Source: Roseomonas gilardii subsp. gilardii
Lineage (GTDB): Bacteria; Pseudomonadota; Alphaproteobacteria; Acetobacterales; Acetobacteraceae
Length of the DNA: 64,000 bases
Direction of reading: 5' to 3'
Assembly (NCBI RefSeq): GCF_023078375.1
Contig: NZ_CP095554.1
Coordinates: forward strand, 2,406,501-2,470,500
Numbering within the stretch: position 1 is the first letter of the stretch; each line of letters starts with the position of its first letter. The notes under the pieces are model-generated. The model made no database searches and was not told the DNA's origin. It saw only the letters and a list, made by a program, of their open reading frames with translations. The position numbers and the translations under genes are program-made. Of the stretch, positions 58,332 through 64,000 are shown piece after piece.

Positions 58332-59657
58332 GTGCGCAAGAAGACGATCCTGGTCCTGGCCGGCCTGGCGGCGGGCCTGCCCCTGCTGGCGCCCCCGGCC
58401 GCGCGGGCCGCCCCCGGCCCTGTCACCTGCCCGGACGGCCTGCCCACCGGCACGGAATGCCGCCGCGGGCGCGACGCCAATGGCGCCTATTACTGGATCG
58501 CGGTGCCGAAGGACTGGAACGGCACGCTGGTGGTGCACAGCCATGGCGGCCCCCGCCTCGGCGCGCCGAAGCCGGACGATCCGGTGGAGGACCTCCAGCG
58601 CTTCGCCGTCACCGTGTCGGAGGGCTATGCCTGGGCGGGCAGCAGCTATCGCCGCGGCGGCTACGGCGTGCGCATGGCGGCGGAGGATACGGAGAACCTC
58701 CGCAAGCTCTTCGTGGCCGAGGTGGCGCAGCCGAAGCGCACCTTCATCCATGGCCAGTCCTGGGGTGGCAATGTCGCGGCCAAGGCGATCGAGCTCTATC
58801 CCGGCAGCTATGACGGCGCGCTGCTGACCAGCGGCGTGCTGGCGGGCGGGACGGAGGGCTATGGCTACCGCACCGACCTGCGCGCCGTGTACCAGTACTA
58901 CTGCCACAACCACCCGAAGCCCGATGAGCCGCAGTATCCGGTCAATATCGGCCTGCCCGCCGGCGAGCGGATGACGGCGAAGGAGCTGGCGGAACGCGTG
59001 AATGCCTGCACCGGGGCCGGGAAGCCGGCGGCGGAGCGCAGCCCGGAGCAGGCGCGGAAGCTGGCCGAGATCACCACGGTGACGCGCCTGCCGGAGCGCA
59101 CGCTGATCGCGCACATGAACTGGGCGACCTTCCTGTTCCGCGACATCGTGGCGGAGCGGCTGGGCGGACGCAGCCCCTTCGGCAACGAGGGCGTGCGCTA
59201 CACGGGTTCCTCCGACGACGCGGCGCTGAACGCGGGCGTGCCCCGGCTGCGCGCCGATCCGAAGGCCGTGGCGGAACTGGCGGAGGACAGCGACCTGACC
59301 GGCAAGGTCACGATCCCGACCCTGACGATGCACGCGATCGACGACCCCACCGCCTTCGTCGAGCATGAGAGCCATTACCGCGCGGTGCGGGAGAAGGCGG
59401 GCACGGCGGGGCTGCTGGTGCAGACCTTCACCCGCGAGCATGTGCACAGCAAGCTGCACACGCCGGAATACGCCGCGGCCTTCGCGGCCCTGTCGCGATG
59501 GGTCGAGACGAAGCAGGCGCCGGAACCGGCGGCCATCGCGGCCTCCTGCGAAAGCTACCGCAAGGCCTATCCGGAGACCTGCCTCTTCGACCCCGGCTTC
59601 CACCTGGCGCCCTATGACAGCCGGGTCTATCCGCGCGACCCGGCCGGGAAGGACTGA
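58332..59657 (+). CDS. Secreted alpha/beta hydrolase
   Basis: A 441-residue exported protein from a GTG. The signal peptide ends A-A-R-A-A. The hydrolase core has H-S-H-G-G-P near residue 70 (oxyanion), the nucleophile elbow G-Q-S-W-G-G with Ser143, Asp in H-A-I-D-D-P near 337 and His in R-E-H-V-H-S near 377. Several Cys could be disulfide-bonded. Esterase or peptidase activity is plausible; the substrate is unknown. Convergent with the protease gene, with seven bases between stops. Confidence 0.85.
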
Positions 59658-59664
59658 ACGCGCC

Positions 59665-60444
59665 TCAGGAAATCAGGCCGAGCCGCGCCCAGTCGTCCAG
59701 GATGGCGGCGAAGGCGATGCCCTCGTTGCGGAAATGCGTGCTGTTGCCGTTCGGCTCCGGGATCCAGCCGCCGCTGTGATGCAGGGCGACCAGCGCCCAG
59801 CCGTCGTCGAAGACCGGGGAGCCGGAGGAGCCCGGCATGGTGTCGGTCAGGTACTGCACCACCTGCGCGTCGGCATAGGCGACCTCGTTGTCCACCAGCC
59901 CGATCTGCTTGGGCTGGCCGCCCGGGTGCTGGATGATGTTCACGCGCATGCCGACCGAGGCAACGCTGCGGTACGGCGGCACGAAGCCGAACTGCATCCC
60001 CGGATCGCCCTGCACGCCGACCAGCGTGTAGTCCAGCGCCTCGCTCGTCACGAAGAGGACGTCCGGCGCGCACTGATAATAGGTGCTGGCCATGAGCTGG
60101 CCGGAGGCGTCGGTCTCATAGTTGAAGCGCAGCACGGTCTGGCGCGCGTGATCGGCGCTCGGGATCACATGGTTGTTCGTCAGCAGCAGGTTGGGCGCGA
60201 TCAGGAAGCCGGTGCCGAGGCCGAGGCCGGTCACGATCACCTGCGTGACACAGCGCGCCCGCCGCGTCCCCAGCTCCAGGAAGGAGATGGGCCGCAGGTT
60301 GTTGTCGCCGATCAGCACCTCCTTCTGCGAGAAGGCTTCCTTCTGGCTGCAGACGCGGTGCACCGCCAGCGCCTCCCGCGTCGCACGGGTGTTGTCCTCC
60401 TGGCCGCGCCACTGGAAGCCGGGGCCCTCGATCGCCTGGAACAT
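59665..60444 (-). CDS. Trypsin-like serine protease of the radical SAM operon
   Basis: A 259-residue S1-type protease without signal peptide. The catalytic triad is complete: His92 in L-T-N-N-H-V-I, Asp138 in A-L-D-Y-T-L-V and Ser207 in P-G-S-S-G-S-P-V. Asp201 lies six residues before the Ser, the place of the trypsin specificity residue by simple counting, although D-T-x-P-G-S-S-G-S-P is also common in V8-like proteases. About 60 residues precede the protease fold. Third gene after the radical SAM enzyme and the repeat protein; it may cut that protein at its repeated Arg (inference). GGAGAGGA precedes the ATG. Confidence 0.85.
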
Positions 60445-60593
60445 CGTCCTCTCCGCTTTGTCCTCGTCGCTCCCGCCGGGGAGGGACCGGGGCGGCCTCC
60501 ACGCGCCATGGCGCATCCCTGCCGTCCCGGTCCCTTGTTCCGGCGGCAGCCCCACCCGGTCGCTCCAGGCGGTGCCGCCTCGCCGCTCCCGCC

Positions 60594-61385
60594 CTAGGTG
60601 CCGCTTTCCGAACCCCGCGTTCCGCCGGAAGCCGCGGCGAGCTGCTGGATCTGCTGGTCCAGCGCCTCGCTCTCATTGACCAGGAGGTCCGCCAGAGCGC
60701 GCAGGCCCCGTGCGACATCGGCGATCGTGGCCGCGGCGGGCACCGTCACGGTGAAGCCCCCCTGGACGCTCCCCTGGACGCCCCCCTGGGTCGATTCCTG
60801 CCGGCCCAGCATGCCGCCCAGGCCGCGTTGCCCGGCCGTGGCGACGGCCACCACCACCGTGCTGGCGGCCCTGCCGAGATCGGAGCCGATGCTGCCACGC
60901 TGCCCGGCGCTGGCGGCGACGATGACGACGGTGCTGGCGGCCCTGCCGAGATCGGAGCCGATGCTGCCACGCTGCCCGGCGCTGGCGGCGACGATGACGA
61001 CGCTGCTGGCGGCCCTGCCGAGATCGGAGCCGATGCTGCCGCGTTGCCCGGCACTGGCGGCGACGACGACGACGGTGCTGGCGGCATTGCCCGCCTGGCT
61101 GGCGATGCTGCCGCGCTGCCCGGCCGTGGCGATGGCCACCACCACCGTGCTGGCGGCCAGGCCGCCCAGGAAGCGGCTGCCTTCCGTCAGGTCCAGCGAA
61201 GGCTGGATCTGCTGCTGGAAGTCGGGGCTGTTCACATCGACCCCGTTCTTCTCCAGCAGTTCCAGCGTATCCGCCAGGAAGCGCGCGCGCGCGGTCGGCG
61301 ATTGCAGCAGGCGCTGCTCCAGCGCCTCGAAATTGCCCGGGTCGGAGGATGAGGAGCCCGGGCCGGTACTGCCTGTGTCGGACAT
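60594..61385 (-). CDS. Repeat protein, candidate multi-core RiPP precursor
   Basis: A 263-residue protein with no Cys and no signal peptide. Order: Ser/Gly-rich start (1-17); helical leader-like part (18-70: F-E-A-L-E-Q-R-L-L, A-R-F-L-A-D-T-L-E-L-L-E-K-N-G-V-D-V); five tandem repeats of 24, 24, 24, 24 and 23 residues (77-195); Gly/Gln-rich linker; C-terminal helical part (220-252). Each repeat reads A-A-S-T/S-V-V-x-V/A-x-A-S/T-A-G-Q-R-G and then mostly S-I-G-S-D-L-G-R. No aromatic residue occurs in the repeats. The position right after a radical SAM/SPASM gene and before a protease gene suggests a modified, cleaved peptide precursor; a structural amyloid-like protein is the alternative. Confidence 0.7.
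   Translation of the reverse strand: MSDTGSTGPGSSSSDPGNFEALEQRLLQSPTARARFLADTLELLEKNGVDVNSPDFQQQIQPSLDLTEGSRFLGGLAASTVVVAIATAGQRGSIASQAGNAASTVVVVAASAGQRGSIGSDLGRAASSVVIVAASAGQRGSIGSDLGRAASTVVIVAASAGQRGSIGSDLGRAASTVVVAVATAGQRGLGGMLGRQESTQGGVQGSVQGGFTVTVPAAATIADVARGLRALADLLVNESEALDQQIQQLAAASGGTRGSESGT
60801..61157 (-). repeat. Five tandem 72-base coding repeats
   Basis: The DNA behind the five 24-residue repeats. The three central copies are almost identical at the base level, sharing 20-base blocks such as CTGCCGAGATCGGAGCCGAT on the plus strand; the first and last copies have diverged, and the last is three bases shorter. This points to recent internal duplication and likely copy-number change. 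Confidence 0.92.
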
Positions 61386-61482
61386 GGATGTCTGCTCCGG
61401 ATTGGACGTTCTGGATGGGTCACGGCAGGGGCCCGGGCCTCGGCGGAGGCACCATGCCCCGGCTGCCGTGAGGTGCGAGTCC

Positions 61483-62703
61483 TCAGGCGATGCTGACCGA
61501 GCGGAGGGTGTCGAGGATGACACGCTCCCCGGCCGCATCGCCCTTCTGCGCCCGCACCGCGGCGAGAAGCTGGGTGATCCGCTCGCATTCCAGCCGCTCC
61601 ATCACCGCCAGGATGCGGTCGGCCAGGACCGGGTCGCGGAACAGGCGGTGGCAGAGGTGGCACGGGCCCACCGCCTGCGACGGATCGGGCAGGTCGCGCG
61701 CCAGATCGGCATCGGCCTCCCGCAGCAGGCGGTAGAGTTCCGCGAAATTCTGGCTCTTCATCACCCGCAGCAGCAGGGAGCCCTCGGCGCGGTCCCAGAC
61801 CTCGGACAGCGTGTCGCGATACACGTTGCCGAGGCTGAGCTTCGGCATTTCCCGGTTGTAGACCGAGCAGCAGGGATAGACCTCGCCATCCCAGAAGACC
61901 GTGATGTCGTGGTAGATCCGCTTGTAGCAACTGCCGAAGCCGGGGCTCTGCGGGACATGGCCATAGCTCGCCGGCGTGACGGAGATGTTGCGCTGCCCCA
62001 TGCGCCCGACATCGGGCAGCACCACGCGGTTGACGACATCGATGTCCGGCTGCCCCGCATATTCGGGGAAGATCTGCTCCAGCCGCATCGTGTCGTCATA
62101 GAAACTGGAGCAGAGGCAGACATGCACGCCGCATTCGCGGGCCGCGTCGATGGCATTGCGCACATATTGCAGCGGCACCCAGTTCTCGTGGCTCGGGTCG
62201 TGCGTGGCGGTGAAGACATCGACGCCATGGGCGGCGAGGTCGCGCAGAACGCGCCGCGCCTCCCCCATGTCCTTCGCCCAGTAGCAGGAGGAGATCATGG
62301 AGAAGGGCAGGCCGTGCTTCTGCATGCGCGCCGTGATGCGCATGACCTCGTCGTAGAAAATCAGCGCCTCGCCGCCGGTGAAGCCGCATTGCGCGAAGAT
62401 GCCGAGTTCGGCGGCCTGATCCACCAGGTCCAGCGCCAGCGCCTCGTCCATGGTCTCGCTGCGCTTCGGCGAGCAGCCATAGCAGCAGTAGTCACAGGCC
62501 AGCGGGCATTTCATCGTGTAGTTGAGGATCAGGATGTTGAAGAGATCCGGTTCCGGTGTGAAGCCGGTCATGCGGGCGATGTCCGTATCGACCTGCTGGC
62601 GGCGCAGGGAGCGCGGCGCCATGGCCAGGCGGGGCCGCAGGAGCCTTTCGGGGCGCGTCACCCGGGCATCGAGGGCGGGAATGCGGTGGCAGGGGCTCGA
62701 CAT
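61483..62703 (-). CDS. Radical SAM/SPASM-type peptide-modifying enzyme
   Basis: A 406-residue enzyme. The radical SAM cluster is Cys66-x3-Cys70-x2-Cys73 in K-C-P-L-A-C-D-Y-C-C-Y-G-C; G-G-E-A near residue 109 is the SAM-binding motif. The C-terminal auxiliary-cluster region is SPASM-like: G-S-C-Y-K-R-I, D-G-E-V-Y-P-C-C-S-V, L-S-L-G-N-V-Y and G-P-C-H-L-C-H-R-L-F. Such enzymes usually alter ribosomal peptides. First gene of rSAM, repeat protein (97-base gap), protease (149-base gap), all on one strand. The start at 62703 leaves the AT-rich upstream DNA outside; an ATG at 62841 would add 46 unlikely residues. Confidence 0.88.
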   Translation of the reverse strand: MSSPCHRIPALDARVTRPERLLRPRLAMAPRSLRRQQVDTDIARMTGFTPEPDLFNILILNYTMKCPLACDYCCYGCSPKRSETMDEALALDLVDQAAELGIFAQCGFTGGEALIFYDEVMRITARMQKHGLPFSMISSCYWAKDMGEARRVLRDLAAHGVDVFTATHDPSHENWVPLQYVRNAIDAARECGVHVCLCSSFYDDTMRLEQIFPEYAGQPDIDVVNRVVLPDVGRMGQRNISVTPASYGHVPQSPGFGSCYKRIYHDITVFWDGEVYPCCSVYNREMPKLSLGNVYRDTLSEVWDRAEGSLLLRVMKSQNFAELYRLLREADADLARDLPDPSQAVGPCHLCHRLFRDPVLADRILAVMERLECERITQLLAAVRAQKGDAAGERVILDTLRSVSIA

Positions 62704-63033
62704 GGCTGGGGTCCTGTCTGTTGCTGACCTGGCGGAAGGCAAAGAGATCTCGTCAGCGGACCGGCGGGAAATTTCTTCCGACGGAGCGCATTTGTTCTGA
62801 ATAAATTGTAATAATTTTCCGTTTTTACTGTGACACATCATCCATTTGAATGATAAATCACGGTTCCCGCTGGATATTTACTATGTGATTTCGATATTGG
62901 AACGTTATCACGATCGGTTGATGATTGAGGAACTTCACACAGTCTCAACCGATCCTGGCAGGGCCGCCGTGCCCGGGAACACAGTGGCGCCGCGCCCGGG
63001 CCGTGATGCGCGCCACCCGGTTGGAAAGGCGGC
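62704..63033. promoter_or_regulatory. Upstream region of the radical SAM operon, AT-rich at about 62780-62945
   Basis: Bases 62780-62945 are markedly AT-rich, unlike anything else in the window. They contain runs such as AATAAATTGTAATAATTTT and TATTTACTATGTGATTTCGA. This is the likely promoter and regulatory region of the radical SAM operon, and its composition suggests acquisition from another source or xenogeneic silencing. A plus-strand frame from 62846 begins plausibly but degenerates into Arg/Pro sequence, so I do not call it. Confidence 0.55.
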
Positions 63034-63485
63034 TCAGAAGCCGATGCAGGCGGGACGAAGGACGCGCAGCACGGATTCCTGCCGGAAACGCCGCCGGTAG
63101 GCTTCGGCGAGGGGTTCCAGCCGCGACGCGGCCTCGGCCGGGCCGGCGCCGGGCAGGGCGAGGATCAGCAGCTTCGATGCCTCGCGCTCCGCATGCCCAT
63201 CCGCGCCACGCCACTGGCCCATGGCATCCAGCACCGTCAGCCCGTCCGGGAAGCGCGGCGTGACCTCGGCGGCCAGAAAGGCATCCCAGGCGCCCTCGCC
63301 GACCACCTGCGCGCCATCCCGGTTCCGGCCGAAGAAGAGTTCCGCCACCATGCCCTGCCGCAGCCCGTCCGGGCAGTCCGCCTGCGAGATGGCGGGGGTG
63401 CGGCACAGGCGGAAAGCGCCACCGCCGCGGCCAACGCGGACAGAACGCGCCCGCCGCGCACGGTCTCATCGGCGGGGCGGGCCAT
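63034..63485 (-). pseudogene. DUF3574 lipoprotein, frameshifted
   Basis: The 5' part, from ATG 63485, is a lipoprotein signal (V-L-S-A-L-A-A-A-V-A-L-S-A-C). The 3' part, one frame away, is a DUF3574 domain: Q-G-M-V-A-E-L-F-F-G-R-N, W-D-A-F-L-A-A-E-V-T-P-R-F-P-D-G-L, and a final S-V-L-R-V-L-R-P-A-C. One extra G in the G5 run at 63394-63398 joins them as A-C-A-A-P-P-A-I-S-Q-A-D-C, a 150-residue protein. The function of DUF3574 is unknown. It starts just after the SMR/EamA-like gene. Confidence 0.8.
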
Positions 63486-63486
63486 G

Positions 63487-63822
63487 TCAGGCCACGGCCA
63501 GCAGGGCGACCCCGGCGCAGATCAGCCCCAGCGCCGCCACCTTGGCCGGGCCCAGCATCTCGCCGAAGGCGAAATGCCCGATCGCCGCGACCGCGACATA
63601 GGAAACGGCGGTGCAGGGCAGTGCCACGCTCATCGGCAGCTTGCGCAGCGCCACGATGTAGAGCAGCGCCGCGCCGCCATAGGCACCAAGGCCGATGATG
63701 GTCTGCCAGCGGAAAAGCTGGGTGAGGAAGCCGCCCTCGCCCAGCGTGCCGGCCTTGAGCAGGACCTGGCCGAACAGCGAGGTGCTGATCGCCGCGGCCA
63801 GCGCGATCCAGGAAGGCATCAT
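63487..63822 (-). CDS. SMR/EamA-like four-helix membrane transporter
   Basis: A 111-residue protein with four membrane helices: A-L-A-A-A-I-S-T-S-L-F-G-Q-V-L-L-K near residue 7, A-Y-G-G-A-A-L-L-Y-I-V-A-L near 47, P-C-T-A-V-S-Y-V-A-V-A near 68 and A-L-G-L-I-C-A-G-V-A-L-L at the end. The size fits small multidrug-resistance proteins and ArnE-like lipid-sugar flippases. Its ATG overlaps the stop of the upstream glycosyltransferase gene, which favours a flippase subunit acting on a lipid-linked sugar. Confidence 0.82.
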   Translation of the reverse strand: MMPSWIALAAAISTSLFGQVLLKAGTLGEGGFLTQLFRWQTIIGLGAYGGAALLYIVALRKLPMSVALPCTAVSYVAVAAIGHFAFGEMLGPAKVAALGLICAGVALLAVA

Positions 63823-64000
63823 CGGACTTCGGCACCGTCCCTTTGCACGGCCGCCGCGACGGCCTCGTGGGGCGCCATCTCCGGCCTCGCCCGCAGCTCC
63901 TCGCGCACCACGCCCTGCGGCTTGCCGTTGGCGGACAGGAAGGCGCGGCCGACATACTCGCCCAGCACGCCCAGGATGACGAACTGCACGCCCGCGATCA
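63819..64000 (-). CDS. Glycosyltransferase, C-terminal part (5' end outside window)
   Basis: The last 60 residues of a gene entering from the right: a hydrophobic helix G-V-Q-F-V-I-L-G-V-L-G-E-Y-V-G-R-A-F, then K-P-Q-G-V-V-R-E-E and an acidic/Ala tail. The L-G-E-Y-V-G-R motif ends polyprenyl-phosphate glycosyltransferases of family GT2 (ArnC/GtrB-like). ATGA overlap with the small transporter gene. Confidence 0.7.
   Translation of the reverse strand, partial: IAGVQFVILGVLGEYVGRAFLSANGKPQGVVREELRARPEMAPHEAVAAAVQRDGAEVR

Follow-up and report, generated by a model that had tools for sequence, protein, structure and literature searches.

A three-gene radical SAM, tandem-repeat and protease module in Roseomonas gilardii, a candidate epipeptide-like peptide modification system

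A stretch of 64,000 nucleotides from Roseomonas gilardii subsp. gilardii (contig NZ_CP095554.1, positions 2,406,501 to 2,470,500; the window) carries on its minus strand, from 62703 to 59665, three genes encoding in this order a radical S-adenosylmethionine (SAM)/SPASM enzyme, a protein with five tandem repeats and an S1-family serine protease. The three genes form one co-inherited, variably present module. By analogy with characterised relatives, there is about an even chance that this is an epipeptide-like system for a ribosomally synthesised and post-translationally modified peptide (RiPP), in which Val/Ile residues of a multi-repeat precursor would be epimerised and the precursor trimmed by a glutamyl-endopeptidase-type protease. 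The module would work like an epimerase RiPP system, yet it fails several of the features that define epipeptides. If the reading is correct, EpeE-type epimerisation, described for a 17-residue peptide, would extend to a tandem-repeat protein, whose five near-identical sites would offer a natural substrate for studying the residue choice of the enzyme, and peptide epimerases would be linked to proteases of a family whose members are known in bacterial conflict systems; being small, and with a congener that offers the empty site, the module lends itself to testing. No description of such a module was found in the literature, searched through titles and abstract openings, most subscription papers lying outside the search.

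A three-gene block inherited as a unit

The enzyme gene (61483..62703, minus strand, 406 residues) is followed after 97 nucleotides by the repeat-protein gene (60594..61385, minus strand, 263 residues), and a further 149 nucleotides lead to the ATG at 60444 of the protease gene (59665..60444, minus strand, 259 residues). The start codons of the three genes were chosen by eye, and an in-frame GTG at 60555 is an alternative protease start that would shorten the second gap. The original prediction for this locus had described three same-strand genes with short gaps, and its coordinates, order and strand are all correct; it had also read them as an operon, which agrees with their recurrence in three other genomes and their joint absence from a fourth, described below. 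Comparison with a congener that carries the block, likewise with five repeats (G102), gave ratios of nonsynonymous to synonymous substitution rates (dN/dS) of 0.085 for the enzyme, 0.216 for the repeat protein and 0.203 for the protease, with 394/406, 235/255 and 242/259 identical residues, respectively. Purifying selection acts on each of the three, and the low dN/dS values show them to be real genes. Upstream of the enzyme gene, an A+T-richer region (62704..62950, minus strand) contains two sigma-70-like sites (62948-62921 and 62834-62805), which are consensus matches only; two such sites were found in 3.9 kb, against 0.2 expected from shuffles.

Each genome search covered at most 398 genomes, sampled from a larger group. 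With the enzyme as query, genome contigs gave two relatives, one in a Nitrobacter metagenome-assembled genome (MAG; L008) and one in a MAG titled Candidatus Bipolaricaulis (L009), a title that may reflect a binning error. The identical three-gene set, in identical order, is present in L008, L009 and G102, and in all four loci, the window included, the repeat gene stands directly after the enzyme gene. Identities to the window proteins are 51% (L008) and 49% (L009) for the enzyme, 49% and 47% for the repeat protein, and 52% and 59% for the protease. Since either the enzyme or the repeat protein served to find these loci, they are alone no proof that the partners never occur apart. Among 385 class genomes, a profile of the repeat-protein leader matched one, that of the window, and no homologue lacking the radical SAM gene, which the original prediction had named as contrary evidence, was found among them. 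The enzyme profile matched one of 385 class genomes (E 1e-40) and one of 398 phylum genomes (E 1e-25), both the window's own, and seven of 371 genomes in the family of G605 (E 1e-25), one of which (G1137) probably represents the L008 genome a second time, as it shares the contig number and the match lies at nearly the same position. Among 249 family genomes, six gave matches to the repeat protein, two of them genuine (the window's genome, G000, and G102); those in G083, G091, G147 and G191 were taken as spurious, the matched frames at two of these four loci (L004 and L007) being quinone-oxidoreductase-like by eye. Viral and phage collections yielded nothing, and the repeat protein was not found in the plasmid collection.

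Within the genus, the enzyme is present in two of 15 genomes. In one of the enzyme-less congeners (G159, contig C31), window positions 58397-59657 match up to 15358 and window positions 63006-64000 match from 15386 onward; the two flank matches abut, and 29 bases align to both flanks. To judge from these match coordinates, a block of about 3.35 kb (59658..63005, no strand, borders approximate), present or absent as a whole and containing the three genes only, is missing in its entirety from this one congener. Both flanks are also present in a second enzyme-less congener (G631), far apart, and in the other 11 of the 13 a long match to the first flank is absent.

The enzyme and its putative substrate

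The radical SAM motif C66-x3-C70-x2-C73 and the SPASM-like C-terminus that had been predicted for the enzyme were both found, with Pfam Radical_SAM (9.7e-11) and SPASM (4.2e-9) exceeding their curated cut-offs. The top NCBIfam model is TIGR04078, the YydG peptide epimerase (9.6e-31, 107.4 bits, model positions 3-295 of 309), followed by PqqE at 44.4 bits, and the closest solved relatives are the YydG structures 8ai1-8ai6 (1.4e-20). Residues C278-C279 align with a Cys pair of YydG, and C348 and C351 with its last two Cys. In EpeE, whose target residues are Val36 and Ile44, Cys223 is the proposed hydrogen donor, and its mutation results in peptide breakage (PMC8326336). By computation, the second Cys of the pair would be Cys223 on the assumption that the solved chain starts with a 25-residue tag, and in the Macrococcus YydG it lies at position 222; the pair is present in all 13 YydG-like rows of the alignment. 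In a 22-row tree with several long branches, 12 YydG-like rows separate from 10 other SPASM proteins at 91/94, the module enzymes form a clade at 99/99, and the sister of this clade is a pair of Allochromatium plasmid enzymes (100/99). Epimerisation, one of the options named in the original prediction, is the reaction of the nearest characterised relative, and by this analogy may be that of the enzyme.

The repeat protein can be divided, on the minus strand, into a leader part (residues 1-76, 61158..61385), which is the part best conserved between lineages, a repeat block (residues 77-187, 60825..61157) and a C-terminal tail (residues 188-263, 60597..60824) that is probably helical, a low-confidence model being part of the evidence. 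The five 24-residue repeats that had been announced are there: the cores begin at residues 78, 102, 126, 150 and 174, exactly 24 apart, with the consensus AAS[ST]VV[VI]xxA[ST]AGQR, and Tandem Repeats Finder reports a DNA period of 72 (4.7 copies, score 429) and one of 144 (score 485; threshold 50). The 14 cores of the three lineages share the pattern A-S-[ST]-[VL]-V-[IV]...G, with A2, S3, V6 and G13 invariant, V in 12 and L in two at position 5, and I in nine and V in five at position 7; successive cores lie 24 residues apart in the window, 21-23 in L008 and 19-21 in L009. The spacer after three of the window cores is GSIGSDLGR and after the same three in G102 GSLGTDLGR, and the cores hardly differ, which suggests concerted change among the repeat copies. 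No Pfam family was found for the window's repeat protein at E values up to 1, and NCBIfam gave only two chance-level matches. The NHLP-type leader model NF038399 matched one of the three leaders, that of L009 (0.0021, 18.1 bits, below the cut-off of 40); no match to it was found for the window's own leader, and within the class it matched in five of 142 genomes, never above the cut-off. A leader common to the neighbours of YydG-like enzymes was also considered and rejected, as only one of eight neighbour proteins (Collinsella) beat all 30 of its shuffles, with an hhalign probability of 4.3% (E 0.0095).

As had been claimed, the repeat protein contains no Cys, and its repeat block contains no F, W, Y or H, so that thioethers and aromatic cyclophanes are left out. 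The other repeat proteins likewise lack Cys and their blocks lack aromatic residues, which limits in the same way the reading that the repeats are modified otherwise, by a change on Val/Ile or on the final G-[QR]-R, such as TvgB-like cyclopropylglycine formation or a crosslink. TvgB is described as a radical SAM/SPASM-family enzyme that repeatedly modifies Val of a tandem-repeat precursor (PMC9062424), and the Val at core position 6, conserved in 14/14 cores, would suit such a reaction; an epimerase is nevertheless the best model of the enzyme by a wide margin, and this alternative is judged unlikely. It is quite unlikely that the repeat protein serves as a structural protein or an adaptor and that the enzyme and the protease act on something else. 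The length of the protein, its C-terminal helical part besides the leader and the finding of no RiPP family above cut-off would fit such a role; against it, the repeat gene is the sole other non-protease gene in the block and directly follows the enzyme gene in 4/4 loci, and for six other YydG-like enzymes the immediately preceding gene likewise encodes a protein with Val/Ala- or Asn-rich stretches.

The protease and the proposed release of the repeats

The protease matches Pfam Trypsin_2 (2.1e-21), and the full catalytic triad that had been proposed is H92/D138/S207, invariant in 3/3 homologues; the claim that it lacks a signal peptide agrees with a hydrophilic N-terminus, a reading by eye. 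Its description as trypsin-like stands for the S1 family and the Pfam match, and probably does not extend to the specificity: the closest solved relative is the glutamyl endopeptidase 1p3c (2.7e-8), with which D201-T202 and H222 align as identical residues. We take the Thr and His of the S1 pocket to read a Glu at P1, and D201 presumably occupies the position of trypsin Asp189, where 1p3c also has an Asp. The repeat block lacks Glu in 4/4 precursors, which have nine, nine, 13 and eight Glu outside it, and E68 and E197 flank the block in the window; given that the repeats arose as copies and that the precursors share ancestry, this pattern is suggestive only. Trypsin-like cutting at Arg into single cores was rejected, since Arg lies inside the L008 cores and Pro follows Arg in L009, so that Arg cutting does not fit all three lineages.

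In the proposed epimerase pathway, the repeat protein would be the precursor, and the radical SAM enzyme would take the alpha-hydrogen from chosen Val/Ile residues in the A-S-[ST]-[VL]-V-[IV] strand of each repeat, C279 giving a hydrogen back from the other face to leave D-residues, as is proposed for EpeE. The protease would then cut after Glu, removing leader and tail and sparing the Glu-free repeat block. This would yield a long peptide carrying D-residues in every repeat, for which an action on membranes, as with the Bacillus epipeptide, is most plausible; YydF is reported to kill through membrane permeabilisation (PMC7026026). As no exporter belongs to the block, either an exporter encoded elsewhere would be used or the product would act inside the cell. 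The comparison of the mass of the repeat protein with and without the enzyme, put forward earlier as a refuting test, is unsuited to this reaction: epimerisation leaves the mass unchanged, and a lack of mass change cannot refute the modification.

Several findings weigh against this pathway. The enzyme is far from the 300-bit cut-off of the YydG model and reaches no NCBIfam cut-off; on these scores it is a homologue of YydG, not an equivalog. Its C259 lies near, and outside, the alignment column of the YydG Cys that precedes the pair. The pair itself is also present in four of 11 unrelated SPASM proteins, in a control of 13 SPASM matches from 16 class genomes of which two are the module's own; the extra Cys, weakened as a proof, therefore supports an epimerase and does not establish one. 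The leader fits RiPP leader models nowhere above cut-off, and no exporter or immunity gene is included in the three-gene block. Both AlphaFold models are poor, with mean predicted local distance difference test (pLDDT) values of 55.8 and 35.7, and lend no structural support to enzyme-substrate binding; the model of the repeat protein (35.7, unusable) shows helices for leader and tail and one strand for each repeat. Finally, in six further genomes, YydG-like enzymes stand in other operons in which no repeat protein was seen, in a neighbour listing of same-strand open reading frames of at least 100 residues, overlapping ones thinned.

The protease family also brings in the reading of an intracellular conflict module, in which a protease triggered by infection or stress would free the modified repeats inside the cell. 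Relatives of the protease matched in 84 plasmid records; among the matches listed, 11 of 30 plasmid rows are named DNA/RNA non-specific endonuclease, and of four plasmid neighbourhoods one has CHAT and S8 genes (H15), one a NACHT gene (H16), one mostly hypothetical genes (H13) and one is without annotation (H17), so that the family is found beside or fused to conflict-type genes. Kaur et al. (PMC7159879) describe trypsin-NucA systems and a radical SAM enzyme whose likely target is a peptide effector, and the absence of a signal sequence, by eye, and of an exporter from the block point the same way. On the other side, NTPase, nuclease and sensor genes are absent from the block, and PADLOC gives weak matches only (viperin as the single match of the enzyme; weak ones for the protease), and this reading is held to be quite improbable. 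A very unlikely form of it would have five D-residue strands, made by an epimerase, hydrophobic and held between helical leader and tail until release, freed by the conflict-type protease and permeabilising the cell's own membrane, as a peptide counterpart of the bacterial gasdermins.

Related systems and YydG-like enzymes in other loci

The epipeptide system (yydFGHIJ, epeXEPAB) resembles the module in its homologous radical SAM/SPASM enzyme with an identical Cys pair, its adjacent precursor gene and its Val/Ile-containing core. It differs in that its precursor has about 50 residues (L025, L026), whereas that of the module has 263 with five repeats; the enzyme gene comes first in the module; and a membrane peptidase and an ABC transporter (L025, L026) contrast with a cytosolic-looking S1 protease and no transporter in the block. 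Of the features that define the class, the second Cys of the PCCS motif (C279) and the auxiliary-cluster Cys align, the pair alone being unspecific, and the YydG equivalog score, the short YydF-type precursor and the membrane peptidase with ABC transporter are lacking; the module is not a member of the epipeptide class. The TvgA/TvgB poly-cyclopropylglycine system shares a tandem-repeat precursor with Val and one radical SAM enzyme, and is reported to have a TVGG repeat and a cluster with an oxygenase and transporters (PMC9062424). Proteusins with PoyD-type epimerases have a longer leader before a Val/Ile-rich core, with D-residues expected, and a review gives their epimerases as lacking SPASM (PMC8326336); the enzyme of the module has this domain and so falls outside the PoyD type, and the match of the L009 leader to the NHLP clan is below cut-off. 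Glutamyl endopeptidase-like S1 proteases share the triad and the pocket residues D201-T202 and H222 as in 1p3c, from which Glu cleavage is predicted. The conflict-system trypsin-like peptidases (PMC7159879) resemble the module protease through the conflict-type contexts of its plasmid relatives, and differ in that the protease here stands alone, with no effector-associated domain (EAD), NTPase or nuclease partner. With three genes only in the block, the module likewise lacks the NTPase, EAD or nuclease partner gene that marks the NTP-dependent conflict systems.

YydG-like enzymes also occur in other settings. On two Allochromatium plasmids (L012 and L013, 4232-6884), type III-B CRISPR genes surround or adjoin the sister enzymes of the module, whose neighbours include a 61-residue protein, a 190-residue protein without Pfam match and an EcsC-family gene. 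The gene for the 61-residue protein stands two genes ahead of that for the sister enzyme, and its product ends in ELACSTSI[IV]TIVY, which resembles LAASTVVVAI at the first repeat of the window, a lead only. In Thermus aquaticus pTA14 (L031, 1054-4529) and a Collinsella aerofaciens plasmid record (L030, 1234-4170), a protein with an Asn-rich alternating stretch of the NANANAN type precedes a YydG-like enzyme, itself followed by a methyltransferase, the two methyltransferases being 35% identical. These two loci resemble a polytheonamide-type pathway in which a YydG-type enzyme replaces the PoyD-type epimerase. In an alphaproteobacterium (L027, 2331-2912), a streptomycete (L028, 1289-1978), an archaeon (L029, 1428-1961) and an enterococcus (L032, 1421-1927), the gene directly before the YydG-like enzyme encodes a protein of 168-229 residues with a Val/Ala-rich stretch, and the N-terminal part of the L028 protein gives a weak match, below cut-off, to an NHLP-related RiPP model (0.0012). 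Five genomes of the genus g365 (L054-L058) have closely similar YydG-like enzymes with a PCCG motif, followed by a larger gene with a Cys-rich radical-SAM-like motif of its own, and no repeat protein was seen in these loci. In L059 (2864-5031 in the orientation of the neighbour listing), two adjacent YydG-like radical SAM genes have as neighbours a glycosyltransferase-like gene and one more SPASM-like gene.

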